In this document: piece by piece, positions 727-19,826 of the stretch
Layout: each line of letters starts with the position of its first letter
Numbering within the stretch: the stretch's first letter is position 1
Origin: a virus
Virus record (IMG/VR): IMGVR_UViG_3300017731_000047
Location: 1-24,417 of that record
DNA length: 24,417 nucleotides
Strand: one strand, 5' to 3'
The notes under the pieces: generated by a model
Told to the model about the DNA's origin: nothing
What the model saw: only the letters and a program-made list of their open reading frames with translations
The model's database searches: none
Translations under genes and position numbers: made by a program

Positions 727-734
727 CTTTACAC

Positions 735-1034: not shown

Positions 1035-1074
1035 ATAAAATTGTGTATGATTATAGTAAGAAGTAATTACTATT

Positions 1075-1749: not shown

Positions 1750-1782
1750 GCGTAGAATAGGTGTAGAAAATAGTAACAACTA

Positions 1783-2340: not shown

Positions 2341-2348
2341 TGTTTTAT

Positions 2349-2666: not shown

Positions 2667-2706
2667 GACTATATAGGGTATGATTTCTTTCTCTTACAAT
2701 GGTATC

Positions 2707-3666: not shown

Positions 3667-3699
3667 AATCCCCTTTTGTGTTCTTCGAGTATATCTAAT

Positions 3700-4287
3700 C
3701 TAACAAAGGAGTCTACCTTTTTCATCATAAATATCTATGAACTTTTCTATCATTCTTGAAGAGTCCTCTATTGGTGGTAAATATACAAGAAAGGATGTAC
3801 AAGTTTTATGCGAACTAACACCTTTACTTGTATTTTTTAACAACGTAGGTGCAGTCTTTAATATACAAATAGGGAAGTCAAATATCTTTTGTTCGTATCT
3901 AATCATGTCCGGACAATTTGTAAAATAGAGTCCTTGTTTTACTTCTTTAGCTAACCACGATTTATATAACTTACGAAACCAAACTGCATGGGAAGAAGTT
4001 AAACTTGGAGATGATGCACGAGTCATCTTCCACTTATCATTTTTCTTGTCCCAAAAGTATGCACCACTTGGAGGAAAGAGATAAACATTACCGTACCATT
4101 GTTGACAATTAAGACCATCATCACTGGGCGTAAAGTAACTATCAGCCTCTACATATGTGTTTGCTACTTTTGAACTAGCTACATCTAATTCAATACCTTC
4201 TAATAGAGCATGAGCAGATGCAATTAGGTCGTAATTAGTAATTAATTCTAGGTCTTCTCTCCTTTTGGTGACATCATGTATAGGCAT
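3700..4287 (-). CDS. Dam-like phage N6-adenine methyltransferase homologue, variant motif
   Basis: 195 aa. The layout resembles the phage Dam family (PF05869): an ELDVASS motif (33-39) in the place of the LDVAAS SAM-binding strand, then YFTPSDDGL (51-59), W64 and GNVYLFPPSGAYF (66-78). In active N6-adenine methyltransferases motif IV reads (D/N/S)PP(Y/F/W); here it is FPPS (71-74), lacking both the catalytic Asp/Asn and the aromatic. The C-terminal half (SLTSSHAVWFRKLYKSWL, GLYFTNCPDMIRYEQKIFDF) looks well conserved and not degenerate. This may be a diverged phage subfamily with another reaction or a non-enzymatic role. The start overlaps the upstream stop by 1 nt (TAATG), indicating translational coupling. 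Confidence 0.65.
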   Translation of the reverse strand: MPIHDVTKRREDLELITNYDLIASAHALLEGIELDVASSKVANTYVEADSYFTPSDDGLNCQQWYGNVYLFPPSGAYFWDKKNDKWKMTRASSPSLTSSHAVWFRKLYKSWLAKEVKQGLYFTNCPDMIRYEQKIFDFPICILKTAPTLLKNTSKGVSSHKTCTSFLVYLPPIEDSSRMIEKFIDIYDEKGRLLC

Positions 4288-4691
4288 TAATTAAGAGAGC
4301 AAGGAGATGCATCTACTTTATCGAAGTTATCATAATCAATCTCAACATATCTAATACCTTCATTGTCCAGTATCATGTAACCAGATACTCTTGCTGGGTC
4401 AATTTGTTCTGCTTTATTTAATATTCTTTTTAAACTTTCACCTAAATCATCGTTATTAAGAGATTCACATAGACGTATATCTTCTCTAAGGTCATCTAAT
4501 GTACACCAAGCATCTTTTTCTTGTGTTGGTATTAGACGCATAACACCAGGACCTTTAAGTTTCCAGAACTTTAAATATTGTTCTCCTTGATCAGCAAGGA
4601 TGAATTTGATTGTTGTATCTAAAAAAGCAGCCTTCTCTGGGTCCATCTCTGGACCAATGACTGAGGCGATTAAGCGTTCTCTTCTGTTCAT
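4287..4691 (-). CDS. Hypothetical protein in early-type minus operon
   Basis: 134 aa, acidic and soluble in appearance, with no membrane segment. It begins MNRRERLIASVIGPEMDPEK and has a predicted helical centre (LDDLREDIRLCESLNNDDL) and a short beta-rich end (GIRYVEIDYDNFD). I do not recognise it. It overlaps the upstream gene by 4 nt (ATGA) and the downstream methyltransferase-like gene by 1 nt, so it belongs firmly to this operon and is probably produced in step with its neighbours. Confidence 0.72.
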   Translation of the reverse strand: MNRRERLIASVIGPEMDPEKAAFLDTTIKFILADQGEQYLKFWKLKGPGVMRLIPTQEKDAWCTLDDLREDIRLCESLNNDDLGESLKRILNKAEQIDPARVSGYMILDNEGIRYVEIDYDNFDKVDASPCSLN

Positions 4692-5149
4692 TTTTTTAGT
4701 AGTCCCTGTCTAGTTAATGAGTCAAGTAGTTTAGGCATCGGTTGATAAAGAACAACCATTTTTCCTAAAATACCACGCTTCTTTACTAATTTGCCATTAC
4801 TATCTCTTACTTTATTAAACTCTCCTGACCTAATTAAATATTCAGCTACACAACGTAATCGTCTTTTTAAAGGTAACTCAGCCTTGGGAAACTTACCGCA
4901 AATAGTATCTGGGGTCATATCTTTAAAAGCAATTCGTAATCTGTTCGCTAAAGTCATATTTGAATTAGCATCTTCTTCCTCATAAGTTTTAACATTTTCT
5001 AAGTATCTTTTTAAACAACCAGTGTCAAATGAACCTTCTGGAGGTATGAACATTTCCACTTGTAATTGTAAAGATTCGGATAGGGTTTCTTTATAGTTTT
5101 CTAAGGTAACTTCTGTTATATCGATGTTAATGAAGCGATGAGCTATCAT
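4688..5149 (-). CDS. Hypothetical protein, possible winged-helix DNA-binding protein
   Basis: 153 aa. The N-terminal 60 residues are acidic (DITEVTLENYKETLSES). The C-terminal half is basic and ends with helix-strand-strand features (LKRRLRCVAEYLIRSGEF, then VRDSNGKLVKKRGILGK, then VVLYQ) that look like a recognition helix followed by a wing. That structural reading is inference; I recognise no family. The gene overlaps the helix-turn-helix gene upstream and the gene downstream by 4 nt each (ATGA). A role in DNA binding together with the upstream HTH protein would be consistent with the position. Confidence 0.7.
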   Translation of the reverse strand: MIAHRFINIDITEVTLENYKETLSESLQLQVEMFIPPEGSFDTGCLKRYLENVKTYEEEDANSNMTLANRLRIAFKDMTPDTICGKFPKAELPLKRRLRCVAEYLIRSGEFNKVRDSNGKLVKKRGILGKMVVLYQPMPKLLDSLTRQGLLKK

Positions 5150-5562
5150 GTTAATTTACCGGAGCTAGTTGTTATATACATAGGTGAAGCTTTTTTACGA
5201 TAATCTTGTGAATTAAAGTCTCTATTTTTAGCAAAAGATTGTACTAATTGGTTCCACGGTATTCTTATCAATGCTTTTCTACCTGAATCAGGAGAAGCAT
5301 TTACATAATGTATACCTTCGACCCAACCTTTTTCCGGATTCTTTTTACCTAAAGCCATCCAATTGCGAAGAGTCTGATCTGAAACTCCCAGTCTACGAGA
5401 GCATTCTTCGGTGCTAATGTATTCATCTGCAAATGCTTGAGGGTTTAAAACATCTGTGGAATTGTTTTCATAACGACTATGCCAAATAGCCGATAAAATA
5501 TTCTTTATACCCTTTAATTCCCACGCTATATCTTCCAAACCTTTACGTAATCCTGGACTCAT
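5146..5562 (-). CDS. MerR/excisionase-type helix-turn-helix protein
   Basis: 138 aa. Residues 48-72 (YISTEECSRRLGVSDQTLRNW and following) read as a classic MerR/excisionase-type HTH: the residue pattern hxxxEhAxxLGVSxxTLRNW. A wing-like segment follows (GWVEGIHYV ... RKALIRIPWNQLVQSF, about 79-112). The N-terminal 35 residues (LEDIAWELKGIKNILSAIW) are helical and may mediate oligomerisation. It leads a five-gene minus-strand operon, so it is a candidate regulator of that operon. The ATG at 5562 has AGGAG about 8 nt upstream, the clearest ribosome binding site in the block. It is divergent from the plus-strand gene starting 50 nt away. Confidence 0.78.
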   Translation of the reverse strand: MSPGLRKGLEDIAWELKGIKNILSAIWHSRYENNSTDVLNPQAFADEYISTEECSRRLGVSDQTLRNWMALGKKNPEKGWVEGIHYVNASPDSGRKALIRIPWNQLVQSFAKNRDFNSQDYRKKASPMYITTSSGKLT

Positions 5563-5612
5563 GATACCACTCCTGTCGATTAGATGCTAATGTAAAAGTA
5601 AATAGTTTTTCA
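5563..5612. promoter_or_regulatory. Divergent intergenic region, start of minus operon and of fibre gene block
   Basis: About 50 nt separate the ATG of the minus-strand HTH gene from the first gene of the plus-strand block. Both transcripts must either start here or read in. The minus side carries an AGGAG ribosome binding site. An AT-rich stretch (TTTACTTTTACATTAG on the minus strand) could hold a promoter, but no box matches a consensus well. The assignment rests mainly on gene orientation. Confidence 0.35.
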
Positions 5613-5615
5613 GTG

Positions 5616-5903
5616 ATGGAAGAACAAGTACCTCCTAGTCAGCCACCGGTTAATCCTCAAATTACTCCGGAACAATTACAACAAATGAAAGCCCGTGCTA
5701 GAGACCTGGCTATACAACAAACTCTAGCTCAAAATGCACCTGTTTCGCCACCTCAACCTCAAGTAATTTATGTTAGAAGGAATCTAACACTTGCAGAGAT
5801 AGTTATTATTTTACTTTTGTCTTGTGGTTTAGTTACTGGAGTGCAATTTACTTGGAATGTTGTTAACGACTTTCTGCCAAGATTGGAGATAAATGTTAAA
5901 TAA
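5616..5903 (+). CDS. Small Pro/Gln-rich single-pass membrane protein
   Basis: 95 aa from the ATG at 5616; a GTG directly before it is an alternative start. The N-terminal half is Pro/Gln-rich and probably disordered (QVPPSQPPVNPQITPEQLQQ; PVSPPQPQ). A hydrophobic helix follows (LAEIVIILLLSCGLVTGVQF, about residues 62-81) and then a short tail (NDFLPRLEINVK). One predicted transmembrane helix near the C-terminus suggests a membrane-anchored protein in the host envelope. It stands first in the fibre-containing plus-strand block. The fold could serve lysis or envelope remodelling, but no family is recognised. Confidence 0.68.
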   Translation: MEEQVPPSQPPVNPQITPEQLQQMKARARDLAIQQTLAQNAPVSPPQPQVIYVRRNLTLAEIVIILLLSCGLVTGVQFTWNVVNDFLPRLEINVK

Positions 5904-5956: not shown

Positions 5957-8182
5957 GTGGCAAATCGTAGAATTAGCGAGTTACAGGAACAGGCAGGTCT
6001 TCAATTAGCAGAAGATGATCTGTTAACAGTTGTAAATGTATCTGAGCCTGATCCTGGACTAAAGAATAAAAAGTTAACAATATCAGGAACAAAAGCATAT
6101 TTAAATATTCATTATTTGCCTAGGACAGGCGGGACTATCAGCGGAAGTACAATAATTCAAAATGATTTAACGGTATCCGGTGCAACGAGTATTGCGGGAT
6201 TATCAGTAACTGATCTATTAACAGTTAGTGGATTACTAGTTCAGCAGAATGCTACTGTTTCTGGAACTATCAGTGGTACCAACATAACTGGTGGTGCTAT
6301 TGAAGGTTCTACTGTTAAAGCAGTAACTTTTACAGGTACAACCGTTAATTCTGTTAGTGGACGTTTTACTACTCTTGTCAGCGGTACTACAGTCACTGGT
6401 ACTCACAGTCTATTTACAAACGTCACTGCTACTGAAATTACCGGAACTACTGTCACTGGCACAACTGCAAACTTCACTACAGTTAATGCCGTAGATTTAA
6501 ATGTTACTGATGACCTAGTAATAACTGATGATCTAGCAGTAGGTGGAGATTTAACCGTTACTGGAAATGCTTCGGTACTAGGTAATACAGATATAGGTAA
6601 TGCCACAAGTGATACGGTAACTTTTACAGCTCGTGTAGATGCTGACTTAGATCCAGCTACAGATGATCAGCATGACTTTGGTGCTGCATCTTTAAGATGG
6701 AAAACCCTGCATGGTGTAACTGTTGTTGCTACGACAGGAACTATAACCGATATCACAGCAACTAATATTACAGGTACGACAATCACTGGTACTTCTGCTT
6801 TATTTACCAATGCAACTGCAACAAATATTACTGGAACCACAGTCACAGGAACAACTGTAAAAGCTACTAATATCACAGGTGTAAATGTAATAGGAACCAC
6901 TTTAATCAGCGGAGCTACTATTTCTGGTGATACAGGACAATTTACTAATGTTACTGCTCAAGATTTTACTGTACAGGATGATTTCATAGTTGCAGATGAC
7001 GTAACGATAGGTGGGGATGCGACTGTAACTGGAACTATAGAAGGTAAAGGAACTATATCAGGAGCAATAATTACAGGTGGAACTAAGATATTATCTCCTC
7101 TAATAACAGGTGCAACTGTCGTTGGTACTACTACAGTTTCAGGTGCTACTGTTACAGGTACTTCTGCTTTATTTACTAATGCAACTGCAACTAATATCAC
7201 AGGTACCACAATCACTGGTACTACAGCTAACTTCACTACAGGTAATTTTGTAAATACAAATATTTCCAATAACTTAGATGTAACAGCTGCCACTACTATG
7301 GGAGGAAACCTAACAGTAACCGGTAATGCTTCGATATTAGGTAATGCAGATATAGGTAATGCAGATACTGATACTGTAACTTTTACTGCTCTTGTAGATT
7401 CAGCTATTCTTCCTGATGCAACTGCTAATAACAGAGATTTAGGAAGTAGTGCTAAGACCTGGAGAACAGTTTATGCAACCACAGTAGCTGCTACTACAGG
7501 AAATATAACCAACATTAATGCAACAGCTATTACTGGAACCACAGTCACTGGTTCTATAGCTAACTTCACTACAGTAAATGCAGTTAATTTAAATGTTACT
7601 GATGATATAGCTATAACAGATGATTTAGCTGTTGGTGGTGATTTAACAGTAACCGGTAATACTTCAATACAAGGTAATACAGATCTAGGTAATGCTACAA
7701 GTGATACTGTAACTTTTACAGCTCTCGTAGATTCTGCAATTATTCCTGATGCAACTGCTAATAACAGAGATTTAGGAAGTAGTGCTAAAAATTGGAGGGC
7801 ACTCTATGCAACTACTCTAGTAGCAACCACCGGTACTATTACTGAGATAAATGCTACTACTATCACAGGTACAACAGTTACTGGTACGAATGCAAACTTT
7901 ACTAATGTTACTGCTGTAGATCTAACAGTTACTGACGATTTAAATATAACTGATGACTTAGGAGTAGGTGGTGATTTAACAGTTACAGGAATTATAGAAG
8001 GTAAAGGCACTGTATCTGGAGTTACGGTAACTGGTACTAGTGCTCTATTCACGAATGTCACTGCTACCAACATTACTGGTACCACAATTACAGGTGGAAC
8101 CATCAAGATGAGTGGAGATACAGTAGCTACTCAGACCTTTGCTGAAGACAGTTCTATTGTCTTTGCAATTGCTCTAGGTTAA
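5957..8182 (+). CDS. Modular beta-repeat tail fibre-like protein
   Basis: 741 aa, rich in Thr, Gly, Val and Asn with hardly any Cys or Met. The N-terminal 50 residues (MANRRISELQEQAGLQLAED, then DLLTVVNVS) resemble the start of tail-fibre-like proteins of marine cyanophages. The rest alternates short ITGTTVTGT-type beta repeats with about 110-residue modules (VGGDLTVTGN, then GNATSDTVTFTA, then DLGSSAKxWRxxYATT), at least three copies. The protein ends ATQTFAEDSSIVFAIALG and has no S74 chaperone. The start is GTG, with ATAGGTC just upstream. Probably an extended fibre or baseplate-associated adhesin; trimeric assembly is inference. Confidence 0.82.
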   Translation: MANRRISELQEQAGLQLAEDDLLTVVNVSEPDPGLKNKKLTISGTKAYLNIHYLPRTGGTISGSTIIQNDLTVSGATSIAGLSVTDLLTVSGLLVQQNATVSGTISGTNITGGAIEGSTVKAVTFTGTTVNSVSGRFTTLVSGTTVTGTHSLFTNVTATEITGTTVTGTTANFTTVNAVDLNVTDDLVITDDLAVGGDLTVTGNASVLGNTDIGNATSDTVTFTARVDADLDPATDDQHDFGAASLRWKTLHGVTVVATTGTITDITATNITGTTITGTSALFTNATATNITGTTVTGTTVKATNITGVNVIGTTLISGATISGDTGQFTNVTAQDFTVQDDFIVADDVTIGGDATVTGTIEGKGTISGAIITGGTKILSPLITGATVVGTTTVSGATVTGTSALFTNATATNITGTTITGTTANFTTGNFVNTNISNNLDVTAATTMGGNLTVTGNASILGNADIGNADTDTVTFTALVDSAILPDATANNRDLGSSAKTWRTVYATTVAATTGNITNINATAITGTTVTGSIANFTTVNAVNLNVTDDIAITDDLAVGGDLTVTGNTSIQGNTDLGNATSDTVTFTALVDSAIIPDATANNRDLGSSAKNWRALYATTLVATTGTITEINATTITGTTVTGTNANFTNVTAVDLTVTDDLNITDDLGVGGDLTVTGIIEGKGTVSGVTVTGTSALFTNVTATNITGTTITGGTIKMSGDTVATQTFAEDSSIVFAIALG
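7410..7788 (+). repeat. 46-bp perfect direct repeat, two copies 333 bp apart
   Basis: Positions 7410-7455 and 7743-7788 are identical over 46 bp and lie exactly 333 bp (111 codons) apart inside the fibre-like gene. They encode the same PDATANNRDLGSSAK segment. Sequence around them is similar but diverged, so the module was duplicated and part of it kept or re-homogenised at DNA level. Confidence 0.9.
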
Positions 8183-8226
8183 CCCCTCATAAAATAGAAG
8201 AAATATTGATTAGGTTTTATAGATAA

Positions 8227-8607
8227 ATGGCTCGTTTTATCTCAGTCTGTCGAGCAGATGTTACCAATAATTCCACCGTTGCATCACAACAAGCAGTAAT
8301 TACTGGTTCGACAAATTCGAGTGGAGTACCTGCATCTACTTATGGAGTCATATTAAGTATTTTAGCTTCCAATAAGAATGCTAACTCACAGAATGTGACC
8401 GTGACTTTATTTAAAGGAGGAGTTGGTGGTACGGCTACTCGTTTAATCACTTCTGGAGTAGTACCAGCTCAGTCCTCCCTGGAGTTTATGACTGGGAACA
8501 AATTGATAGTTGAACCTGATGATGTCATCAAAGCTTATGCCAGTGCTACTAGCTCGATAGATATCACCGTTTCATATATGTTAAATCCTCAAGATACCAG
8601 TATCTAA
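8227..8607 (+). CDS. Small beta-rich virion protein
   Basis: 126 aa with no signal peptide. The sequence is beta-rich with evenly spaced hydrophobic strands: YGVILSILASN (39-49), QNVTVTLFKGG (55-65), VVPAQSSLEFM, KLIVEPDDVIKAYASATSS and DITVSYML near the end. This pattern (ILSIxxAN, then VPAxxSLE, then DDxIxAxA, then VSY) is one I associate with small structural proteins next to fibre genes in marine phages. It may be a fibre accessory or baseplate protein. It ends 2 nt before the first large S74 fibre gene, so the two are likely co-translated. Confidence 0.7.
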   Translation: MARFISVCRADVTNNSTVASQQAVITGSTNSSGVPASTYGVILSILASNKNANSQNVTVTLFKGGVGGTATRLITSGVVPAQSSLEFMTGNKLIVEPDDVIKAYASATSSIDITVSYMLNPQDTSI

Positions 8608-8609
8608 CC

Positions 8610-11600
8610 ATGCCTTACATCGGAAATCCAATATCAGATTTTAACGTCAGCACCGCTATGCTCAACACTGATAGTGTGACGAGCATTAAGATTGATGATG
8701 GAACTATTGTAAATGCCGATATAAATGACAGTGCAGCGATAGCAAAGACAAAATTAGCTGCTTTAGAAATAGTCAACGCAGATGTAAATGCGAGTGCAGC
8801 TATTGCCGGTAGTAAGATCTCTCCAACATTTACTACCGATGGATCTTTTAATTCAATATCTATAGGTAAAGGTGCAAACTCTGTTGCTGGTAACACTGTT
8901 CTTGGCGAAAGTGCTTTAGATGATGCTGTTACTGGTTTAAATAATACTGCTATTGGTAATTCAGCATTAACAGTTTTAACTTCTGGAGCAAACAACACAG
9001 CTGTAGGATCAGGAGCCTTAGATGCTAATACCACTGCATCAAACAACACTGCTGTAGGTCATAACTCATTAACAACTAATACTACAGGAGCACTCAATGT
9101 AGCTGTTGGACAAAGTGTGTTAAGAGACAATTCAACAGGCACACTAAACACGGCTGTTGGTGGCCACAGTATGATTAAAAACCAGACAGGTATTGAGAAT
9201 GTATCTATCGGTACAAGTGCTCTGGAAGATAATACCAGTGGTGATAGTAATGTAGCTGTTGGTCGTTCAGCTTTAGGAAGTAATACTACAGCAGATAGCA
9301 ATACAGGAGTTGGAAGATCAGCATTAGGAGCAAACACAACTGGAAGTCATAATGTTGCACTAGGTTATCAGGCATTAGATGCTAATACTACTGCTGGTTA
9401 CAATACTGCCGTAGGTTCTAATGCATTAGGAGCAAATACAACTGGACATACAAATACTGCTGTTGGTAATCAATCGCTTTTATCAAATGTAGATGGGTTT
9501 AGAAATACAGGACTAGGAAGCGATAGTTTAAGGTCTAATACAACGGGAATACAAAACGTAGCGGTGGGTAGTTTTGCAATGGATCAAAACACCACAGCAT
9601 CAAATAATACTGCTATTGGACATAATACTTTAAATCAAAACACAACTGGATCATTTAACACAGCAGTAGGATCAACCTCATTAGACGCTAATACAACAGG
9701 AGCGAAAAACGTAGCTTTAGGTCAGAACTCATTAAGTGCAAACATTTCAGGGTCTTTTAATACTGCTACAGGAAGAGGTGCTTTGGCTGCAAACACAACA
9801 GCAGATAATAACACAGCAGTGGGTAACGCAGCTTTGCAAGCAAACACAACTGGAACTCAGAACACAGCCTTGGGTGCTGAATCTTTAGATGCAAACACAA
9901 CTGCAAGTTACAGCACAGCCTTAGGATCAAATTCTTTAACAAATAATACTACTGGAAATAATAATACTGCAGCTGGATATGATTCCCTAGGAGATAACAC
10001 AACTGGATCATCAAATACTGCTGTAGGTATGCAGACTTTAAATAAAAACACAACTGGATATGATAACACTGCCGTAGGTGCTAATGCTTTAGATGCGTGT
10101 ACAACTGGTGATAACAACACAGCGATTGGTAAAAATGCTATGGGGTCTAGCACAACAGCATTTAATACTACAGCCGTTGGTAGTCAAGCTTTAGCTGCAC
10201 TTACAACAGGTGGGGCTAATTCAGCCTTTGGACATGACTCTTTAGCCTCAACAACTACAGGTGCAAGTAATACGGGAATTGGTTTTGAAACTCTAAAAGC
10301 AAACACAACTGGAGCAGATAACGTAGCTGTAGGTGCTTTAGCTTTAGATGCCAATACTACAGGAACTAGAAACACTGCTGTAGGAGATTTATCTTTATCT
10401 AGCAACATAGATGGTGAATATAACATAGCAGTAGGACATAAAGCTTTGGAACTTAATACAGTAGGAAGAAGGAGTACTGCTGTTGGTGCTTTTGCTCTTA
10501 GAACACAGGATCCAGCCAGTAGTGGTCTCATGTATAACTCTGCACTAGGTTATGCAGCGTTGTATTCAAATACAACAGGATTACAAAATACTCATATGGG
10601 TGGATTTTCCGGGTATTTAATGACATCTGGAAGTGGTAATACTGCACTAGGTTATGAATCTCTATATTCCAATACAACAGCAAGTAACAATACTGCTATA
10701 GGTAATTCAGCTTTAAGAGTAAACACAACTGGACATTCAAACGCAGCTGTAGGTGCTTTATCTTTAGATGCATGTACTACAGGAACTAGAAACACAGCAG
10801 TTGGGTTTGAAGCTGGTTCAAATATAAGTACTGCTAACGATAATACATATTTAGGAAGAAGAGCAGGTTTTGCAAATGCAACTGGAGAGAATAACGTAGC
10901 GATTGGTGTAAGTGCAATGGAAGATGCTAATTCAAGTGCCGAAAATAACGTATGTATTGGTAAAACATCTGGTTTTGCATTAACAGGTGATAACAATACT
11001 GCTTTAGGATACCAATCATTAAAAGCAAACACAAGTGGAAATAATAACACTTCTCTTGGTTTTAATTCTAGCTCTGGTAGAACCAGTGGAAATGATAACA
11101 CTGCTGTTGGTGCATATTGTTTCAACGCAACAGCGACAGGAGATAGTAATACAGGAGTTGGAAAATCTGCTTTGCATGATTGTACTTCTGGTCATAGTAA
11201 TGTTGCTGTTGGTTTAAATGCTTTATTTGCAACTACAAGTGGTGATAACAACGTAGGTGTAGGAATATATGCAGCAGATAGTATTACTACAGCATCACGA
11301 TGTACTGCTATTGGTGCTCAAGCTCTCGCTGCTTGCACTACAGGAAATGATAACGTAGCAATCGGATATCAAACGGCAGATGCAGTTACAACAGGAACAA
11401 GCAACGTTGCTATTGGTATCAGTGCAATGACAGCAGGCACAACTGCTAGAGATAACGTAGTTGTTGGTAGATCTGCTGGTACTTCTATATCAAGTGGCTT
11501 CAGAAATACAATTGTTGGTTATGAAGCGGCTACCAGCTTAACAAGTTCTCAAGAAAATACTTGTATTGGTAGTGACGCTGCTGATGAAATGACAACTGGG

Positions 11601-12170
11601 CGTTACAATACTATGATTGGTAACAACTCTGGTCACAACCTTACAACTGGACAACACAATGTTTTTGTTGGTCATGCAACAGTTTCTGTTGGTGGTAGTA
11701 ATGAAAAACAAATTGTCATCGGTACTGATATTAACAGCGTAGGTAGTTACCATATTACTATGGGAAGAGAGGGAGATAAAATTCACAACCAATTTAATAG
11801 TAATGCGTCTTGGACTCGTAACTCTGATGAAAGAAAGAAGAAAGATATACTTACAAATACAGATTTGGGATTAGGCTTTATTAATGATCTAAGAACAGTT
11901 ACTTATAAATGGAAAGCACCTTCTGAATTACCTGAAACTATCTCAGGATATGATAAAGAAATAACAGAAGCAAGTCATAAAGATAAAATGTATGGTTTCA
12001 TTGCTCAAGAAGTTAAAGCAGCATTAGATAAACACAGCATTACTAATTTCAATGGCTGGACTGAAGATAATAATGGTGAACAAGGCGTTTCATATGAAAT
12101 GTTTGTTATGCCATTAGTAAAAGCAGTACAAGAATTATCAGCAAAAGTCACAGCACTAGAGTCTGCTTGA
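8610..12170 (+). CDS. Giant fibre: YadA-head-like repeats with C-terminal S74 chaperone
   Basis: 1186 aa. The N-terminus (MPYIGNPISDFNVSTAM, about residues 1-80) is likely the virion attachment module. From about residue 85 to 1030 it is built of a 17-residue repeat of the form NTAVGxxALxxNTTGxx, similar to YadA/Hep_Hag trimeric head repeats but three residues longer than the usual 14. By span I estimate about 55 copies. The C-terminus is a peptidase S74 intramolecular chaperone: S1072-D-E-R-K-K-K-D-I holds the Ser-Lys dyad, followed by YGFIAQEV and a coiled-coil end (VKAVQELSAKVTALESA). Such domains trimerise the fibre and then cut themselves off. It probably binds the host surface. It has a paralogue at 12481-15828. 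Confidence 0.9.
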   Translation: MPYIGNPISDFNVSTAMLNTDSVTSIKIDDGTIVNADINDSAAIAKTKLAALEIVNADVNASAAIAGSKISPTFTTDGSFNSISIGKGANSVAGNTVLGESALDDAVTGLNNTAIGNSALTVLTSGANNTAVGSGALDANTTASNNTAVGHNSLTTNTTGALNVAVGQSVLRDNSTGTLNTAVGGHSMIKNQTGIENVSIGTSALEDNTSGDSNVAVGRSALGSNTTADSNTGVGRSALGANTTGSHNVALGYQALDANTTAGYNTAVGSNALGANTTGHTNTAVGNQSLLSNVDGFRNTGLGSDSLRSNTTGIQNVAVGSFAMDQNTTASNNTAIGHNTLNQNTTGSFNTAVGSTSLDANTTGAKNVALGQNSLSANISGSFNTATGRGALAANTTADNNTAVGNAALQANTTGTQNTALGAESLDANTTASYSTALGSNSLTNNTTGNNNTAAGYDSLGDNTTGSSNTAVGMQTLNKNTTGYDNTAVGANALDACTTGDNNTAIGKNAMGSSTTAFNTTAVGSQALAALTTGGANSAFGHDSLASTTTGASNTGIGFETLKANTTGADNVAVGALALDANTTGTRNTAVGDLSLSSNIDGEYNIAVGHKALELNTVGRRSTAVGAFALRTQDPASSGLMYNSALGYAALYSNTTGLQNTHMGGFSGYLMTSGSGNTALGYESLYSNTTASNNTAIGNSALRVNTTGHSNAAVGALSLDACTTGTRNTAVGFEAGSNISTANDNTYLGRRAGFANATGENNVAIGVSAMEDANSSAENNVCIGKTSGFALTGDNNTALGYQSLKANTSGNNNTSLGFNSSSGRTSGNDNTAVGAYCFNATATGDSNTGVGKSALHDCTSGHSNVAVGLNALFATTSGDNNVGVGIYAADSITTASRCTAIGAQALAACTTGNDNVAIGYQTADAVTTGTSNVAIGISAMTAGTTARDNVVVGRSAGTSISSGFRNTIVGYEAATSLTSSQENTCIGSDAADEMTTGRYNTMIGNNSGHNLTTGQHNVFVGHATVSVGGSNEKQIVIGTDINSVGSYHITMGREGDKIHNQFNSNASWTRNSDERKKKDILTNTDLGLGFINDLRTVTYKWKAPSELPETISGYDKEITEASHKDKMYGFIAQEVKAALDKHSITNFNGWTEDNNGEQGVSYEMFVMPLVKAVQELSAKVTALESA
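8870..11710 (+). repeat. 51-bp tandem repeat array in first S74 fibre
   Basis: Imperfect tandem 51-bp units encode the 17-residue repeat. Many units share the DNA core GCAAACACAACTGGA (for example near 9329, 9840 and 10300), while others differ by silent changes. A weaker 34-residue alternation of TTA- and TTG-bearing units is visible (NTTASN against NTTGxx). The limits are approximate. Confidence 0.85.
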
Positions 12171-12206
12171 TATAAATAGGGTTTTGCCCCTTTAAATTTA
12201 TAAATA
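12171..12206 (+). promoter_or_regulatory. Two TATAAATA boxes, candidate T4-type late promoters
   Basis: TATAAATA occurs at 12171-12178, right after the stop of the first giant fibre gene, and again at 12199-12206, 36 nt before the ATG of the next gene. This is the -10-like box of T4-type late promoters. In sequence this AT-rich, a few chance copies per strand over the window are expected, but two within 36 bp in an intergenic gap is suggestive. No sigma-factor gene is in the window to test it. Confidence 0.4.
12178..12194 (+). terminator. Weak hairpin after first S74 fibre gene
   Basis: AGGG (12178-12181) can pair with CCCT (12188-12191) around a TTTTGC loop, followed by a short T-rich run. 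The stem is only 4 bp, so this is a weak candidate for a terminator or transcript-processing site between the two fibre genes. Confidence 0.25.
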
Positions 12207-12242
12207 ATTAGACTATAATTTGTTTAGATAAATATATTTAAC

Positions 12243-12425
12243 ATGTCGCATCATTTTGACAAAAAGATAGAAGAACGTGCAGCACAATTACAAACAGCAG
12301 TTGAACAATATAACAACGCATTGAATGTAATGAACGCCACGAAAGAACAAATAATCAGTCTACAAGGAAGCTTGGCAGAACTAGAAACTCTCAAGAAAGA
12401 AGAAGAGGCAGAAGCAGAATCTTAG
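12243..12425 (+). CDS. Short coiled-coil protein between the two giant fibres
   Basis: 60 aa, almost entirely helical with heptad spacing (IEERAAQLQTAVEQYNNAL, then IISLQGSLAELETLKKEEE) and an acidic tail. It has no signal peptide or membrane segment. It lies alone between two paralogous S74 fibres, with its own candidate late promoter upstream. A fibre assembly helper or a structural peptide of the fibre complex is a reasonable guess, but no family is recognised beyond the coiled coil. Confidence 0.7.
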   Translation: MSHHFDKKIEERAAQLQTAVEQYNNALNVMNATKEQIISLQGSLAELETLKKEEEAEAES

Positions 12426-12480
12426 TCTCAAAAGTTACTAGATTTAAAATAGAGAATAAGTAAATAATTAGGGTAGGAAT

Positions 12481-15400
12481 TTGTCTTATATCGGCCAGAG
12501 ACCAGTAGTAGGCAGATACATTAAACTTGACCAGATATCAAGCGGCTTTAATGGATCTAGTACCGGGTTTAGTATGACCGCCGGTAGTCAAGCTGTGTTT
12601 CCTGGAACAGCCAGAAATTTATTACTGTCATTAGGTGGTGTAATACAAGAACCAGATACAGACTTCACAATATCAGGTTCCACATTAAACTTCACGACAG
12701 CTCCCGTAGCTAATACCACATTCTTTGCAGTTATATTCGGTGACATGCAGTCCACTGGTACTCCCAGTGATGGAACTGTATTACCTGCTTCGGTAGCAAC
12801 CGGGCTTGATTTTACTTTTAACTCTGTAGCTATAGGTAAAGGTGCAAACTCTGTTGCAAACAACACTGTTCTTGGAGAAAGTGCTTTAGATGCTTCTGTA
12901 TCTGGTGGAAATAATACTGCGGTTGGTAAAGAAGCATTAACAGCATTGACTTCTGCTACAAGTTGTACTGCTGTTGGTCACATAGCAGGGTTTTCACATA
13001 CAACTGGTAATAATTTAACTGCAATAGGTCGAGGTGCTGCATACGCAAACACTACTGGAGCAGAAAATACAGGTATTGGAGCAGGAGCATTATTTGATAA
13101 CACAACAGGTGGTTCAAATACTGCTGTTGGTAGATTAGCTTTAGAAAGTAACACTACGGCAGATAATAACACTGCGGTTGGTAAAAGTTGTTTAGCAGCA
13201 AACACAACTGGAATACAGAATGTAGCTGTAGGTGGTTTTGCTTTAGATGCAAATACCACCGCAAATGCCAACACTGCTATGGGTTATCAAGCGTCTAGGC
13301 TTAATACAACTGGAACTTTTAATACTTCTTATGGTCATCAATCTCTATATCACAATACGACAGGAGGATATAACACAGCTTTAGGTAAAGGTGCTTTAGT
13401 AACAAACACAACAGCATCTAACAATACTGCTGTAGGATTTGAAGCATTAAAAGCAAACACAACTGGAACAGAAAACGTAGCTGTAGGTTCTTTAGCCTTA
13501 GATTTAAATACAACTGGATCTTTTAATACTTCTATTGGTCATAACACTTTAACAACAAACTCAACAGGACAGCAAAACGTAGCTGTAGGAAGAATAGCTT
13601 TACAAGCAAACACTACTGGAAGTTATAATGTTGGACTTGGAGTAAATGCTTTAAATCAGAATACAACTGCAAATAATAATACTGGAGTTGGTTATTATGC
13701 ATTAAATGCAAACACAACTGGAACAGGTAACGTAGCTGTAGGTGCAAACGCTTTAGATGCAAACACTACAGCAGATAATAATACTGCTTTAGGTATTCAC
13801 TCTTTAGGTACAAACACAACTGGATACAATTGTGTTGGTCTTGGTGCTTACTCTTTACGCTATAACACTGATGGATTTGAAAATACTTCTATTGGTTATA
13901 ATTCATTATCTGCAAATACAACTGGTGATCTTAACACTGCTGTTGGTAGATCTGCATTAGCTAATCAAACTACCGCAAGTCATAATACTGCTGTTGGCTG
14001 GAAGTCTGGAGAAGATATCACTACTGGACAACAGAACACCGCTGTAGGATCTCAGTGTATGCAGAATGGTACAACTGCTGCTCAAAACACGGCTATCGGA
14101 GCATTTTCTTTAGAAACTAATACAAGTGGAGCATATAACGTAGCAGTAGGAAATCAAGCATTAAAAGAAAATACTACTGCTAGTAATAACACAGCAGTAG
14201 GTAAATCAGCGTTAGCAGAAAACACAACTGGAACAACAAACACTGCTGTAGGTGCTACTGCCTTAGACGCTAACACTACTGGAGGGTCTAACACTGCTCT
14301 TGGAATGAATGCTTTAGGTACTAACACAACAGCAAATAATAACACTTCTGTTGGTGCAAGTAGTATGGCTGCTAACACAACTGGAACGGCTAACGTTGCT
14401 TTAGGAGTTAATGCTTTAAATGCTAATACAACAGCAGATAACAATACAGGAATAGGTTTTCTTGCTTTAACAGCAAACACAACTGGAACGCAGAACGTAG
14501 CTGTTGGAGCTTTTGCTTTAGATGCCCAAACAACAGCTAATAATAATGTAGCTGTTGGTTATCAATCAATGACTGCAACTACAACAGGTTCATTTAATAC
14601 TGCTGTTGGATTAGTAGCACTGGCATCCAACACAACCGGGGCACAAAATACTGCTTATGGTTATAGAGCATTAACATCAAATACAACTGCTAGTTTTAAT
14701 ACAGCGATTGGAGATGGTTGTTTAGATCATAATACAACCGGCACTTTGAATACTGCTGTTGGAAGTGAAGCAATGGCAGCAAACACAACTGGAATAAGAA
14801 ATACTGCTGTTGGATATGGTGCTTTAGATGCAAACACAACTGGTGATTTTAATAATGCTTTTGGATATGCTTCATTAGGAAAAAATACAACTGCTGATGA
14901 AAATACCGCTTTTGGTAATAAAACATTAGAAGATAATACAACTGGTGCTGGTAATACGGCTGTTGGTAGTCATGCCTTAAGAGACAACACAACTGCAAGT
15001 AATAACACTGCTTTTGGTAATTATGCCTTGAACTCAAACACAACTGGACACTCTAACACAGCAGTCGGTAAATCTGCTTTACAAAATCCTACAACTACTA
15101 ATGCTAATACGGCTGTTGGTTTTGAAGCACTTAAAAACTCCACACATCAAGCTAATACGGCTGTTGGTTGTGAAGCATTACAAGAAAACACATCAGGTGA
15201 TACAAATACTGCTATAGGTGCTCTTTCTTTGACTGCAAATACTACAGGAGGCAATAGTACTGGTGTAGGAGGTCACACTCTTCAAAGTGCAACAACAGCA
15301 ACTGAAAATACCGCAGTAGGTAGACAAGCTGGTGCAAATGTTACTACTGGTATACGAAATACATTTGTTGGAAAAGGTGCTGGTGAAAACAGTATCACAA

Positions 15401-15828
15401 CAGGAGCTAATAACTTAATTCTTGGATTTAATGCCGTAGCTTCAAGTGCAACAGCATCAAATGAAGTCACTTTTGGTAATACTCAAATAAGTTCAGTACG
15501 TTGTAATACAACAAGTATTAGTTCACTTTCTGATAAAAGAGATAAAACAGAAATTATTGATTTACCTTTAGGAATTGAATTTTTAAATACTTTAAAGCCA
15601 GTAAAATTTAAATGGGCAACAAGAGATGGCAATATTAAAGATGGTAAATATCGTGCTGGTTTTATTGCACAAGATTTACAGGAAGCACAAAAAGGTAATG
15701 AATATCTTGATTTAATTCTAGATGAAAATCCAGACAGGCTAGAAGCAAGAGAAAATAATTTATTCCCTGTATTAGTAAAAGCAATACAAGAGTTATCAGC
15801 AGAAGTACAAGCACTTAAAGCTGCCTAA
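12481..15828 (+). CDS. Giant fibre paralogue: YadA-head-like repeats with S74 chaperone
   Basis: 1115 aa, starting at TTG after TAGGAAT. The N-terminal about 110 residues (MSYIGQRPVVGRYIKLDQIS, then an aromatic/beta segment with LLSLGGVIQEPDTDFTISG) form a different attachment module from the paralogue at 8610-12170. The stalk (about 120-990) uses the same 17-residue NTAVGxxALxxNTTGxx repeat, about 50 copies by span. The S74 chaperone begins around S1017-D-K-R-D-K-T-E-I, with AGFIAQDL and a terminal coiled coil (VKAIQELSAEVQALKAA). The two genes share almost identical DNA at the start of the stalk (12830-12857 and 8860-8887), so they are mosaics of common parts. Its TAA overlaps the next ATG (TAATG). 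Confidence 0.9.
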   Translation: MSYIGQRPVVGRYIKLDQISSGFNGSSTGFSMTAGSQAVFPGTARNLLLSLGGVIQEPDTDFTISGSTLNFTTAPVANTTFFAVIFGDMQSTGTPSDGTVLPASVATGLDFTFNSVAIGKGANSVANNTVLGESALDASVSGGNNTAVGKEALTALTSATSCTAVGHIAGFSHTTGNNLTAIGRGAAYANTTGAENTGIGAGALFDNTTGGSNTAVGRLALESNTTADNNTAVGKSCLAANTTGIQNVAVGGFALDANTTANANTAMGYQASRLNTTGTFNTSYGHQSLYHNTTGGYNTALGKGALVTNTTASNNTAVGFEALKANTTGTENVAVGSLALDLNTTGSFNTSIGHNTLTTNSTGQQNVAVGRIALQANTTGSYNVGLGVNALNQNTTANNNTGVGYYALNANTTGTGNVAVGANALDANTTADNNTALGIHSLGTNTTGYNCVGLGAYSLRYNTDGFENTSIGYNSLSANTTGDLNTAVGRSALANQTTASHNTAVGWKSGEDITTGQQNTAVGSQCMQNGTTAAQNTAIGAFSLETNTSGAYNVAVGNQALKENTTASNNTAVGKSALAENTTGTTNTAVGATALDANTTGGSNTALGMNALGTNTTANNNTSVGASSMAANTTGTANVALGVNALNANTTADNNTGIGFLALTANTTGTQNVAVGAFALDAQTTANNNVAVGYQSMTATTTGSFNTAVGLVALASNTTGAQNTAYGYRALTSNTTASFNTAIGDGCLDHNTTGTLNTAVGSEAMAANTTGIRNTAVGYGALDANTTGDFNNAFGYASLGKNTTADENTAFGNKTLEDNTTGAGNTAVGSHALRDNTTASNNTAFGNYALNSNTTGHSNTAVGKSALQNPTTTNANTAVGFEALKNSTHQANTAVGCEALQENTSGDTNTAIGALSLTANTTGGNSTGVGGHTLQSATTATENTAVGRQAGANVTTGIRNTFVGKGAGENSITTGANNLILGFNAVASSATASNEVTFGNTQISSVRCNTTSISSLSDKRDKTEIIDLPLGIEFLNTLKPVKFKWATRDGNIKDGKYRAGFIAQDLQEAQKGNEYLDLILDENPDRLEARENNLFPVLVKAIQELSAEVQALKAA
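12830..15450 (+). repeat. 51-bp tandem repeat array in second S74 fibre
   Basis: Imperfect 51-bp units encode the 17-residue repeat. The core GCAAACACAACTGGA recurs (for example near 13198, 13456, 13706, 14473 and 14780) and is shared with the array in the first fibre gene. A 28-bp block at 12830-12857 is identical to 8860-8887. The limits are approximate. Confidence 0.85.
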
Positions 15829-16037
15829 TGAATTTTATTGAACTAATTTATTTATTTTGTTTTGCTCTTGTAGTCGGAGCTGCATTTGCGTTTATGTATA
15901 GATCAATGGACCTGGTATTTAAAGAATTAGATAAACCAAAACGTCCCATACATCCAGAATTAAAAGATGTGAAAGATGGAGATGAGTTGTTAGTATTTAG
16001 GATTAAAGAGGATACTACCGAAGAAAACTTGCATTAA
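15828..16037 (+). CDS. Small N-terminal membrane-anchored protein
   Basis: 69 aa. One predicted transmembrane helix at residues about 4-24 (IELIYLFCFALVVGAAFAFMY) is followed by a charged, soluble tail (FKELDKPKRPIHPELKDVKD). The ATG overlaps the stop of the second giant fibre (TAATG), so its translation is coupled to the fibre. Position and topology would suit a lysis accessory or an envelope protein, but I recognise no family. Confidence 0.72.
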   Translation: MNFIELIYLFCFALVVGAAFAFMYRSMDLVFKELDKPKRPIHPELKDVKDGDELLVFRIKEDTTEENLH

Positions 16038-16082
16038 GATGTGCAAAACTTATAATGTATATATAAAAGACTACTGGTAAAC

Positions 16083-16364
16083 ATGGAAGAAAAGACAGCC
16101 GACGAAATTGCAGCGATTTTTTCTGCTGCCGGTGACAGTGTAACTGTTATTAATGCTGATGCTAACTTCGCAGCATATGGTACAAGAACGTCTGATTCAA
16201 CAACCACTGAAACTGAGTGGAAAGAAATGATCCAGAGAAATGTAGAACATCTTGAGATCATCAAAGCTTACAAGAAAGTAGATGAAACAACATCTATCTG
16301 GACATCTGAAGATTTCACAGCTATTGATGCAGCTATTACTTCAGGTAAAACTCTTTACTCTTAA
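16083..16364 (+). CDS. Small soluble phage protein, possible assembly chaperone
   Basis: 93 aa, acidic and probably helical at the start (EEKTADEIAAIFSAAGDSV). A C-terminal block is well formed: RNVEHLEIIKAYKKV, then SIWTSEDFTAIDAAITSGK. I have a memory of this C-terminal pattern in small proteins beside fibre genes of marine phages, without an assigned function. The box TATATAAAAG about 20 nt upstream could be a late promoter variant. The gene overlaps the next one by 1 nt (TAATG). Confidence 0.7.
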   Translation: MEEKTADEIAAIFSAAGDSVTVINADANFAAYGTRTSDSTTTETEWKEMIQRNVEHLEIIKAYKKVDETTSIWTSEDFTAIDAAITSGKTLYS

Positions 16365-16585
16365 TGCTTAAGAAGATAATTACAGCACTAGTTTTTGCTA
16401 ACACCATTATTCTGTTAGGAATAATTGGTGGTGGTTTTTACGCATATAGATATGTGACCAGTGGTAATTTTGAAAAGCTTATAAAAAGTAAAGTGATGGG
16501 AGATATACAAAAAGCTCTTCCTAGTGCAATAGAAAATAAGTTACCTTCTATCACAGGAAAATCTATACCTCTACCTATTAAGTGA
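16364..16585 (+). CDS. Small N-terminal membrane-anchored protein
   Basis: 73 aa. A hydrophobic helix at residues about 4-29 (IITALVFANTIILLGIIGGG, FYAYRY) works as an anchor or uncleaved signal. The outer part is short and basic/amphipathic (FEKLIKSKVMGDIQKALPSA) and ends in SIPLPIK. It overlaps the preceding gene by 1 nt and the following by 4 nt (GTGA), so the three are translationally coupled. With the next gene, which has a membrane segment near its C-terminus, it could form an envelope-spanning pair, but there is no lipobox or other spanin mark. Confidence 0.72.
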   Translation: MLKKIITALVFANTIILLGIIGGGFYAYRYVTSGNFEKLIKSKVMGDIQKALPSAIENKLPSITGKSIPLPIK

Positions 16586-17265
16586 GTATATCTGATATAT
16601 CAATCCCAGATATATCCATACCTAATGTCTCAGTTGAAATAATTCCTCCTGTCAGAGTGTTTGGTGGTTTTGTATCTAACCCAGCTTTTAGTGAACCTTC
16701 TTTATTACTACCTGGTTGCTATAAGACACACCGTGATGCGGATAAAAATCCTAATCTTGTAAACGACGATCCCACCGGTGCATTCTGGGCATGTCCGTGG
16801 GGTGAAGTACCTGAAATAACTCCTATTCCGTTTGATCGTTCTAAGATGATCTACTCAAATGATGAGGTAAAGGAAGAGAAAACAGAACAACCAGTAATAC
16901 TTAAAGAACAAACAAAGACAGAAGTACCGAAAAAGAAAGAGGAGAAAACATTCTTTCCTCCCTGCCCAGATCCTAATTCAAAGCTGAGGGTAGGCTCATT
17001 CGCTAATGAGAAACGCTTAGAACGAATTAAGGAATTTAAATATAATGAAGACAAGACACAATGCCTAACCATTTGGGAAGATGTCGATTATGTCTCTACG
17101 TGGATGCCAGAACCATCATTGGTCATAAACACAGTCATCATAGCCTCCATAGCGGCCACCTCACCCGCCTTAATTAATATAATCAAAGCGGCGACAAAAA
17201 ATATTATGAAAAAGATTACGGCTTCTCGGAAGAAACAGAATGATAGTGAGACTCAATCTGATTAG
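16582..17265 (+). CDS. Hypothetical protein with C-terminal membrane segment
   Basis: 227 aa with a GTG start overlapping the upstream TGA. The N-terminus is an SISDISIPDISIPNVSVEI repeat, followed by a compact segment with conserved-looking Cys, Trp and Pro (LLPGCYKTHRDAD; AFWACPWGEVPEITPIPFD). A charged Glu/Lys linker (about 93-125) leads to FFPPCPDPNSKLRVG, then CLTIWEDVDYVSTWMPEP. A hydrophobic helix (LVINTVIIASIAATSPALI, about 180-199) and a basic tail end the protein. Three Cys lie before the membrane segment. It overlaps the converging minus-strand gene tail to tail by 50 bp. Family unknown. Confidence 0.72.
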   Translation: MSISDISIPDISIPNVSVEIIPPVRVFGGFVSNPAFSEPSLLLPGCYKTHRDADKNPNLVNDDPTGAFWACPWGEVPEITPIPFDRSKMIYSNDEVKEEKTEQPVILKEQTKTEVPKKKEEKTFFPPCPDPNSKLRVGSFANEKRLERIKEFKYNEDKTQCLTIWEDVDYVSTWMPEPSLVINTVIIASIAATSPALINIIKAATKNIMKKITASRKKQNDSETQSD

Positions 17266-18804: not shown

Positions 18805-19269
18805 TTAAATTCTATCATCGCCAATTAATACCCGATCCTTATAATAATTGTTCAAAAGCCAAGAACTACTGTTGATTTTATAGTCTCCTCCTACACCCCA
18901 TTGGAATTTAACTCTTTTATTATTTGTGTAAGCATCTAGTTCTGGTGTGTTACCAACTATTCTGTCTCCTCCATTAGCAAATATAACTTCATCAGCTATG
19001 GATAGACATTTTTCTATAGCTCCACAAGCAGTTTTATCTGAGTCATCCCAATTTATAACCATTGAAACCATGTCTAAATGTTTAATAATATTGGATCTTT
19101 CATCCCAATCTTGAAATGCTTGCTTCTTTTTATCTATCAACCATTCGTCACTGTTTAAACCAATGACTAAAAAGTCAGATAATTCACTTGCTGCTTTGAA
19201 GTATTCGATATGTCCACTATGTATGGGATCGAATCCTCCTGTTACTAGCGTTAGTTTGTTTACGAACAT
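18805..19269 (-). CDS. Cytidylyltransferase-family nucleotidyltransferase
   Basis: 154 aa from the ATG at 19269; a TTG nine bases upstream is an alternative. The nucleotidyltransferase motif is intact: TLVTGGFDPIHSGHIEYFK, with the HxGH signature at about residues 17-20. Later family features are NSDEWLIDKK, FANGGDR (about 99-105) and a C-terminal SSSWLL in the place of the ISSS motif. Enzymes of this superfamily join a phosphorylated sugar, glycerol or choline to CMP/AMP (RfaE/HldE-C, TagD types); the exact substrate cannot be read from sequence. It starts 2 nt after the preceding gene's stop. A cupin and a glycosyltransferase further along the same strand suggest a role in sugar activation. 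Confidence 0.85.
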   Translation of the reverse strand: MFVNKLTLVTGGFDPIHSGHIEYFKAASELSDFLVIGLNSDEWLIDKKKQAFQDWDERSNIIKHLDMVSMVINWDDSDKTACGAIEKCLSIADEVIFANGGDRIVGNTPELDAYTNNKRVKFQWGVGGDYKINSSSWLLNNYYKDRVLIGDDRI

Positions 19270-19271
19270 GA

Positions 19272-19826
19272 TTAACAATCATTAAAGGATTTAGCAATTT
19301 CTCCTCCAACATCCGCACCTTTATTACCACCAAACATTGCAACCCATCCAGCAGCTAACCAGCCTACTACAGGGATTTGGGATACAGCTGGTGCAGCTTG
19401 TGCTCCAATAGATGTACCTATCAATCTCCCTGTGGATTCTCCAGCTCCTTCAGTTTTTATACAAGCAATTAACTCGTCAGTAATTTCTTCTCCAACTTTG
19501 GTAGATGTTTTACCAAGTAGAGTGTTCTCTTCGTATAAATCTACTTCCTCTTGTTTACCTCCGAAGAGACCTTTGGGAGTAGATGTTCTTGTACGAGTTA
19601 TAAGTTTCTTTGGATCATTTGCTCTGTAAGAAAGAGTGTAGCCGTTTTTAGTTGCAGTTAAGCGGTAAGAAGTGTAAGGACCTACCGGTATATTAAAGGA
19701 AGGGATTTTTTTATGGTTTGATGTACTTACTAAATAAGTAATCAAGGACACATTTGATGTACCTAATAAAACAGCGAGAGAGATTGAAAAGATAGATAAT
19801 CTTTTGTTTTCTCTGTTGCTATACAT
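19272..19826 (-). CDS. Membrane-anchored hypothetical protein
   Basis: 184 aa. A hydrophobic segment at about 10-33 (LSIFSISLAVLLGTSNVSLI) is probably an anchor. The middle is beta/charged (YRLTATKNGYTLSYRANDPK). The C-terminal 50 residues are Gly/Ala-rich and hydrophobic (AAPAVSQIPVVGWLAAGWVA, then FGGNKGADVGGEI), which could be a glycine-zipper-like membrane segment. There are two Cys, C117 and the final C184. The gene overlaps the holin-like gene by 8 nt. A membrane lysis accessory is possible. No family recognised. Confidence 0.7.
   Translation of the reverse strand: MYSNRENKRLSIFSISLAVLLGTSNVSLITYLVSTSNHKKIPSFNIPVGPYTSYRLTATKNGYTLSYRANDPKKLITRTRTSTPKGLFGGKQEEVDLYEENTLLGKTSTKVGEEITDELIACIKTEGAGESTGRLIGTSIGAQAAPAVSQIPVVGWLAAGWVAMFGGNKGADVGGEIAKSFNDC

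Follow-up and report, generated by a model that had tools for sequence, protein, structure and literature searches.

Two fibre genes with a 17-residue repeat stalk and an S74 end as a candidate exchangeable host-recognition cassette in a cyanophage-like virus record

The virus record IMGVR_UViG_3300017731_000047 (24,417 bases, analysed over its whole length and called the window below) carries two adjacent genes, here fibre A and fibre B, whose products begin with different N-terminal adaptors, end in different S74 domains and have one kind of repeat stalk in between. The question raised by this locus is how two long fibres with unlike ends came to share such a stalk, and what the arrangement does for the phage. 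Our answer, which we hold to be rather likely, is that the stalk and the S74 domain, often with a small gene of 93 amino acids (aa), form an exchangeable host-recognition cassette that is recombined at constant joints.

A preliminary description of this DNA, made from the letters alone, had reported adjacent proteins of 1186 and 1115 aa with a mosaic build. Both frames are indeed open, the N-termini are unlike, and the C-terminal regions share 33% identity across 118 residues. It had also put the stalk period at 17 residues rather than the 14 of the YadA head repeat, and this holds: the residue autocorrelation at lag 17 is 0.412 in fibre A (residues 95-1010) and 0.448 in fibre B (residues 128-985), compared with maxima of 0.149 and 0.164 in 200 shuffles each with 175 lags scanned, and lag 14 gives only 0.05 and 0.078, which is background level. 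Read by phase, the consensus is N-T-A-V-G-x-x-A-L-x-A-N-T-T-G/A-x-x. Where the two arrays are regular (76 units), Gly5 is always present, and positions 6, 7, 10, 16 and 17 are the most variable. The arrays are not pure 17-mers, for they contain an entrance coil of 13 residues, a final coil of 14 in fibre A and further irregular coils. There are about 56 coils in fibre A and about 51 in fibre B; with a rise per coil of 0.48 nm the stalks would be about 27 and 25 nm long, so the stalks are long and the earlier word "giant" is too strong. The architecture of adaptor, joint, stalk and S74 domain is established for both genes by the open frames, the repeat period and the Pfam matches (Table 1).

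Table 1. Features of the fibre region and their coordinates in the window
Feature	Position	Strand	Basis
Fibre A, 1186 aa (adaptor, joint, 17-residue stalk, S74)	8610..12170	+	Open frame, repeat period, Pfam
Fibre A N-terminal adaptor, residues 1-79	8610..8846	+	92% identical in L157
Fibre A 5' joint FNSISIGKGANSVAGNTVLGESALDD	8847..8924, DNA-constant core 8874-8924	+	Synonymous identity
Fibre A stalk, 17-residue coils, some irregular	8892..11639	+	Periodicity
Fibre A S74 chaperone, S1072/K1077	11823..12167	+	Pfam; last nine codons 12141-12167 are the proposed 3' joint
60-aa small open reading frame between the fibres	12243..12425	+	Open in L219, L157, L220; diverged in L230
Fibre B, 1115 aa, TTG start (adaptor, joint, 17-residue stalk, S74)	12481..15828	+	Open frame, repeat period, Pfam
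Fibre B N-terminal adaptor, residues 1-112	12481..12816	+	Sequence comparison
Fibre B 5' joint FNSVAIGKGANSVANNTVLGESALDA	12817..12894, DNA-constant core 12844-12894	+	Synonymous identity
Fibre B stalk, 17-residue coils	12862..15408	+	Periodicity, AlphaFold2 model
Fibre B S74 chaperone, S1017/K1022	15529..15825	+	Pfam; last nine codons 15799-15825 are the proposed 3' joint
69-aa gene (phrog_275, function unknown), between fibre B and the 93-aa gene	15828..16037	+	100% identical in L219
93-aa protein, candidate partner of the 17-residue stalk fibre	16083..16364	+	Linkage to 17-mer fibres

The claim that both fibres carry the same stalk repeat stands as far as a common repeat family is meant. 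The two stalks are not recent copies of each other, since the synonymous codon identity between A and B is 0.493 compared with 0.454 expected from codon usage. Recent tandem growth was considered and rejected, neighbouring repeats being scarcely closer to one another synonymously than distant repeats are (0.481 and 0.44 in A, 0.538 and 0.534 in B); the expectation from codon usage is 0.44 for A and 0.47 for B, and B lies somewhat above it. Copying between the fibres is unsupported apart from the first unit, with 86% DNA identity. Judged from these codon comparisons, the stalk repeats are old. Related repeats were also seen in 17 loci of cellular assemblies (L239-L255), 12 of them Bacteroidota by title.

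The evidence for exchange is strongest at the entrance of the stalk. The motif [FI]NSxxIGKGANSVAGNTVLGESALDA occurs there behind unlike adaptors. Over 31 entrances, codons 10-26 have a synonymous identity of 0.86; it falls to 0.64 in the 17 codons that follow and to 0.45-0.51 beyond them, and is 0.56-0.64 before the motif. Over 395 pairs with unlike adaptors it is 0.762 in codons 1-26 versus 0.470. A codon-blind scan of IMG/VR for the joint (Ser as TCN only, Leu as YTN) gave at least 119 stretches, and 80 loci were used; after removal of segments at least 85% alike, 70 of the 80 were kept, and Ser and Leu codons were excluded from the identities. In these 70 non-redundant loci the identity is 0.85 in the joint, 0.66 in the next coil, 0.46-0.49 in the stalk and 0.53-0.71 upstream. 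For the 1423 of 2415 pairs whose adaptors are at most 30% identical, the joint remains at 0.85, with 0.46-0.51 in the stalk and 0.37-0.46 far upstream; the sequences compared share ancestry and the pairs are thus not independent. One exact tract of 33 bases is shared by 29 of the 70 joints. Stalk codon usage predicts a joint identity of 0.431 (87 of 102 joints, redundant ones removed). As a control, five protein-conserved stretches of the S74 domain in 33 of 34 sequences gave 0.50-0.56 versus 0.49-0.52 expected. At the level of sequence, these comparisons demonstrate that the DNA of the entrance joint is conserved beyond the constraint on its protein.

A second joint is proposed at the other end of the cassette. 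The last nine S74 codons have a synonymous identity of 0.729 versus 0.442 expected (172 non-redundant of 222 tails), these being the values corrected for residue composition, which replace an earlier uncorrected value of 0.75. In 10,187 pairs with unlike tails the same codons give 0.603 versus 0.441, and an excess was also seen in a set of 33 tails. The effect appears modest, and the constancy weaker than at the entrance.

The fibre slot itself was compared in eight loci, the window included, that hold both of its flanks. Two S74 fibres are present in four of these eight complete slots (the window, L157, L221 and L230), and therefore the pair is a trait of the closer relatives and not unique to the window. 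Three of the four have 17-mers in both fibres, and in L221 these two adaptors carry a different repeat body. L157 retains the adaptors at 92% (A) and 96% (B) aa identity, but in its S74 domains the identity to the window is 30-35%. In L221, adaptor B (90% identity) and a piece of adaptor A (74% over 38 aa) sit on bodies without 17-mers. In L230, seven upstream genes (2680-5903) are 97-100% identical in aa and adaptor B is 84% identical; the S74 domains are at 24-33% and the start of fibre A differs. The first 45 or so residues of adaptor A recur in L158, L159, L167 and L168 on bodies without 17-mers, three of which are cut by a contig end. In the four more distant loci (L224, L226, L228 and L229), the frame with adaptor B is 222-223 aa long and the slot contains other genes. 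Among cultured phages, residues 22-71 of adaptor A were found at 78% identity in the Prochlorococcus P-SCSP1 phages and adaptor B at up to 54%. The comparison thus demonstrates, for sequences, the replacement of bodies behind kept adaptors. Outside the slot comparison, 19 of 160 loci with at least one 17-mer fibre have two, a set that includes repeated contigs and pieces of the window and so gives no frequency.

The same parts are also found in what is, judged by its genes, another kind of phage. In L219, the 1206-aa gene just before the fibres is 52% identical to the host specificity (J) protein of Prochlorococcus phage MED4-117, and none of the left-flank genes of the window was found in this locus. 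It agrees with the window at 96.4% of the DNA over 12113-12955 (843 bases), from the last codons of fibre A through the 60-aa open reading frame and adaptor B into the second 17-mer, and at 95.7% over 15775-16124 (350 bases), starting in the final codons of fibre B.

The 93-aa gene accompanies the stalk. When its relatives were sought by their own sequence, with the best 80 of 292 used, the gene was found at most 800 nucleotides (nt) behind a 17-mer stalk fibre in all 74 loci with at least 1000 nt upstream (6 of the 80 were shorter). The gap between fibre and gene has a median of 25 nt, with five gaps above 200. Of 91 loci with a relative of the window gene at 16582, 77 hold both the stalk and the 93-aa gene, nine hold neither, three the gene only and two the stalk only. 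Because most of the 91 had been fetched through the stalk or the gene, the fair tests of linkage are the loci found by the gene's own sequence and those with adaptor B. The adaptor-B loci of the lineage without 17-mers in the slot (L221, L222, L224, L226, L228, L229 and L232) are also without the 93-aa gene, and the window, L157, L220 and L230 have it. L223 has the gene as well; its adaptor-B fibre is almost without 17-mers and the preceding fibre has some. All six phage records with the gene also match fibre A, and in one phage, HTVC111P, a glycosyl transferase gene sits between the fibre and the 93-aa gene. These counts demonstrate the linkage at the level of gene order. An alignment of 22 members of the 93-aa family matched no PHROG at 0.01, no Pfam model below E 0.01 and, up to E 10, nothing in the PDB. 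The middle part of the protein varies in length and both ends are conserved. Synonymous identities of 0.47-0.83 by stretch, uncorrected for composition, were not used.

We propose that genes A and B encode tail fibres of a cyanophage of the S-EIV1 lineage, in which the adaptor would attach to the virion. The stalk would be a left-handed beta-solenoid, that is, a YadA-like roll widened by three residues per turn. The S74 domain would drive trimerisation and would probably be released by its own cut before Ser1072 or Ser1017, after which the end of the stalk would be left as the host-facing tip. The stalk and the S74 domain, usually with the trailing 93-aa gene, would be the exchangeable unit, and it would recombine onto various adaptors through short, near-constant DNA, clearly at the stalk entrance and more weakly at the last S74 codons. 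A swap would then change the surface in contact with the host while attachment to the virion is kept. The 93-aa protein may serve in fibre assembly or at the tip.

For the cleavage step, the S74 domain (PF13884) is matched in both fibres, with E 5.7e-11 and 43 bits in A and E 6.1e-10 and 39.7 bits in B (cut-off 22). The catalytic residues of this family are a Ser and a Lys at +5; the serines singled out in the preliminary description, S1072 and S1017, are in place, each with its Lys (K1077 and K1022). Both columns are invariant in all 34 aligned C-termini of the fibre B type. The profile of these C-termini finds the tail fibre 8jov (E 2.4e-4) and, weakly, 3gud (0.089), and the matched 3gud chain starts at the corresponding Ser. 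By analogy with the S74 family, self-cleavage before S1072 and S1017 would be expected. Some 55 residues in A and 40 in B, counted by eye, lie between the last 17-residue coils and the Ser, and since so few separate them, the stalk end or its flank would face the host after cleavage. CbpF, which has a related beta-roll, contacts its receptor by way of a loop within that roll (PMC13432900). That beta-roll precedent, together with two different S74 and stalk bodies standing side by side and with two S74 fibres in half of the complete slots, speaks for the earlier suggestion that two self-cleaving adhesins give dual receptor binding. It is a reasonable guess, and we consider it quite possible, if somewhat short of an even chance, as both fibres could belong to one fibre complex or act in turn.

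The fold of the stalk was examined by predicting single chains. The AlphaFold2 model of fibre B residues 801-1115, made with 34 sequences, has a mean predicted local distance difference test score (pLDDT) of 84.5. Re-alignment of 212 Foldseek candidates gave CbpF first (Z 17.3, root mean square deviation (rmsd) 2.6, 175 residues), and YadA was matched with Z 15.2 and rmsd 1.9 over 139 residues; other adhesin heads followed with BpaC at Z 14.1, BoaA at 13.2, AtaA at 12.8 and EibD at 12.2. Foldseek by itself found no match to this model at E 0.001, the best being CbpF at E 0.021. For fibre A residues 1-300, with 12 sequences, the mean pLDDT is 67.7, with residues 1-82 below 50. Of the 20 chains compared with this model, an antifreeze beta-helix (Z 13.8), GlmU and a phage spike align best; none of the 20 is an adhesin head or a YadA-type roll, which speaks against the proposed fold. 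The beta-roll implied by the preliminary description is thus matched by the fibre B model and not by the fibre A model. The Pfam YadA-head model has no match at E 10 in the fibres, though the HMMER filters drop weak matches, and a single-sequence search for solved relatives of the fibres found none.

The coil could instead be a triangular left-handed beta-helix as in LpxA and GlmU, which has about 18 residues per turn. The period of 17 is close to this value, chains of the GlmU and LpxD types reach Z 12.6-14.5 with the fibre B model, and the single weak PDB sequence match of the stalk (E 0.018 and 0.051) is a CA3 chain, which we take to be of the gamma-carbonic-anhydrase type. We regard this alternative as unlikely, since the best structural matches are the adhesin heads CbpF and YadA, the hexapeptide motif was not seen by eye, and the stalk of fibre A begins with a coil of 13 residues and ends with one of 14. 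A YadA-type roll in the stalk is likely on the modelling. Like the heads of YadA, BpaC and CbpF, whose coil repeat is 14 residues, the stalk has a glycine-punctuated coil motif, and the fibre B model matches them at Z 12-17; it differs from them in its coils of 17 residues, those of 13 and 14 being confined to the edges. Trimeric autotransporter adhesins have a membrane anchor, whereas fibres A and B end in S74 after more than 50 coils.

Several observations weigh against exchange of the cassette by recombination. The agent we infer from the sequences is homologous recombination, and no event of it was seen, no breakpoint test having been made. The stalk itself lies slightly over its expectation (0.47-0.48 versus 0.40) and identity is also raised upstream of the joint over all pairs, so common ancestry may account for part of what is seen at the joint. 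In the S74 end, the 36 codons that precede the tail also lie slightly over expectation (0.50-0.63 versus 0.46-0.54), and in 12 fibres from six close loci the last 17 codons have no excess (0.513 versus 0.534 and 0.566 in their neighbours). The flanks of L230 are not uniformly fixed, as identity drops next to the slot, to 88% and 92% on the left and, beyond a first gene at 97%, to 71%, 77% and 70% on the right. L219 is a single contig that lacks the right flank and is possibly a chimeric assembly. The rule that stalk and 93-aa gene go together is broken in five of the 91 loci (gene only in L416, L223 and L029; stalk only in L108 and L019), 133 of 139 phage records matching fibre A have no homologue of the gene at E 0.01, and in the window itself the gap from fibre B to the gene is 254 nt, with the 69-aa gene inside.

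The raised identity in the next coil and upstream would suit a recent common ancestry of entrances that spread once, with no continuing exchange. We find this improbable, because in the same pairs the stalk just past the joint is near background, and because ancestry alone should keep at least one flank alike, which the many pairs with unlike adaptors do not bear out. Less probable still is a function of the joint at the nucleotide level (mRNA structure, a nuclease or recombinase site, or a regulatory element), for, although third positions are near invariant (AAC in 31 and GCA in 30 of 31 entrances), four joints had no stable RNA fold (z 0.97, 0.29, -0.94 and 0.73), the window had no Rfam match, and the constancy fades gradually on both sides (downstream from 0.85 through 0.66 to 0.47) with no sharp edge.

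As to the phage that carries the two fibres, no near DNA match to the window was found among 50,697 phage records, a set from which very close records are possibly excluded. For the comparison with Synechococcus phage S-EIV1, two stretches of it (KJ410740), 33,963 bases, were used. Over the window genes in 1-5903 and the first part of 5957-8182, gene order agrees with that of S-EIV1 and aa identity is 41-70%; near the right end, four genes have S-EIV1 counterparts at 36-67%. Outside fibres A and B, 18 of 34 tested genes match in the same order. This collinear homology at both ends places the window in the S-EIV1 cyanophage lineage and suggests a cyanobacterial host. S-EIV1 is described as a lineage that occurs on polar freshwater Synechococcus (PMC8790148). 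In one data set, L156 (by proteins) and L076 (by DNA) match the window at 100% on either side; both end inside the stalk of fibre B, and a short stretch of that stalk is therefore found in the window record alone.

Among the surrounding genes, 5957-8182 encodes a third repetitive, fibre-like protein of 741 aa, which has a repeat of 111 residues and lacks an S74 match; at its start it resembles S-EIV1 AHV82255 (43.8% identity), and in L230 the frame is longer (886 aa). Directly ahead of fibre A, 8227-8607 encodes a phrog_1276-like protein of 126 aa, with 90-94% identity in 7 of 16 matching loci and 32-75% in the others (the identical L156 excluded). The 60-aa open reading frame between the fibres looks coiled-coil-like by eye and weakly matches phrog_20003 (E 0.0012). 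On the minus strand, 18805-19278 appears nucleotidyltransferase-like, 23019-23456 cupin-like and 23497-24411 glycosyltransferase-like, all by eye, and the last of these matches a stretch of S-EIV1 annotated as glycosyl transferase. The window has no tRNA genes. An excess of promoters or terminators in 8100-16700 was considered and rejected, with 25 sites versus 28.6 expected and 4 versus 4.6 expected from shuffles.

When compared with known systems, the parts of these fibres are ordinary, since such fibres are found in many marine phages. Repeat and S74 regions match the marine 17-mer fibres of PHROG 4636, 6002 and 23837, carried by Roseobacter phage CRP-1, Pelagibacter phages HTVC111P and HTVC112P, Methylophilales phage Venkman and Prochlorococcus phage P-SSM2, but identity is below 60% in all 139 and 133 matching phage records. 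S-EIV1 itself differs in the slot, with one protein of 601 aa that has an S74-like end by eye and no 17-mers. With the Peptidase_S74 chaperones (endosialidase, the GA-1 neck appendage 3gud and 8jov) the fibres have in common the Pfam match, the Ser and the +5 Lys; here the domain follows a YadA-like stalk and its last codons are DNA-constant beyond expectation. In the distal tail fibre adhesins of T-even phages, swapping reportedly takes place at glycine-rich islands in gp38. Host-contact segments are traded through short conserved stretches in both cases, and here the joint lies ahead of a beta-solenoid stalk with an S74 end. In metaviromic islands of marine phages, the C-termini of tail fibres were the most variable, and the portion of that source consulted (PMC3909814) describes no constant joints, paired slot or linked 93-aa gene. 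Among the open-licence papers listed by searches, titles and abstract beginnings showed no 17-residue rolls in phage fibres and no constant fibre joints, an absence that is not proven. What is new is a constant entrance joint, replaced bodies behind kept adaptors and a linked 93-aa gene, taken together as modular fibre exchange.

A wider proposal, which we put forward tentatively and are inclined to doubt, is that a standard connector is common to marine phages whose tail types are unrelated. The entrance and S74-end joints would plug one pool of stalk and S74 bodies onto many adaptors, each body usually with its own 93-aa partner of an undescribed family, either a tip adhesin or a stalk-specific assembly factor. 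If modular exchange is true, the exchanged host-contact unit would be readable from sequence, as whatever lies between the joint and the S74 end. Metagenomes would then allow host-range turnover to be counted, the pace of trade in attachment parts between tail types would be measurable, and the undescribed 93-aa partner protein would be a concrete target for the laboratory. Cassette swapping may be how marine phages change their attachment to host cells.

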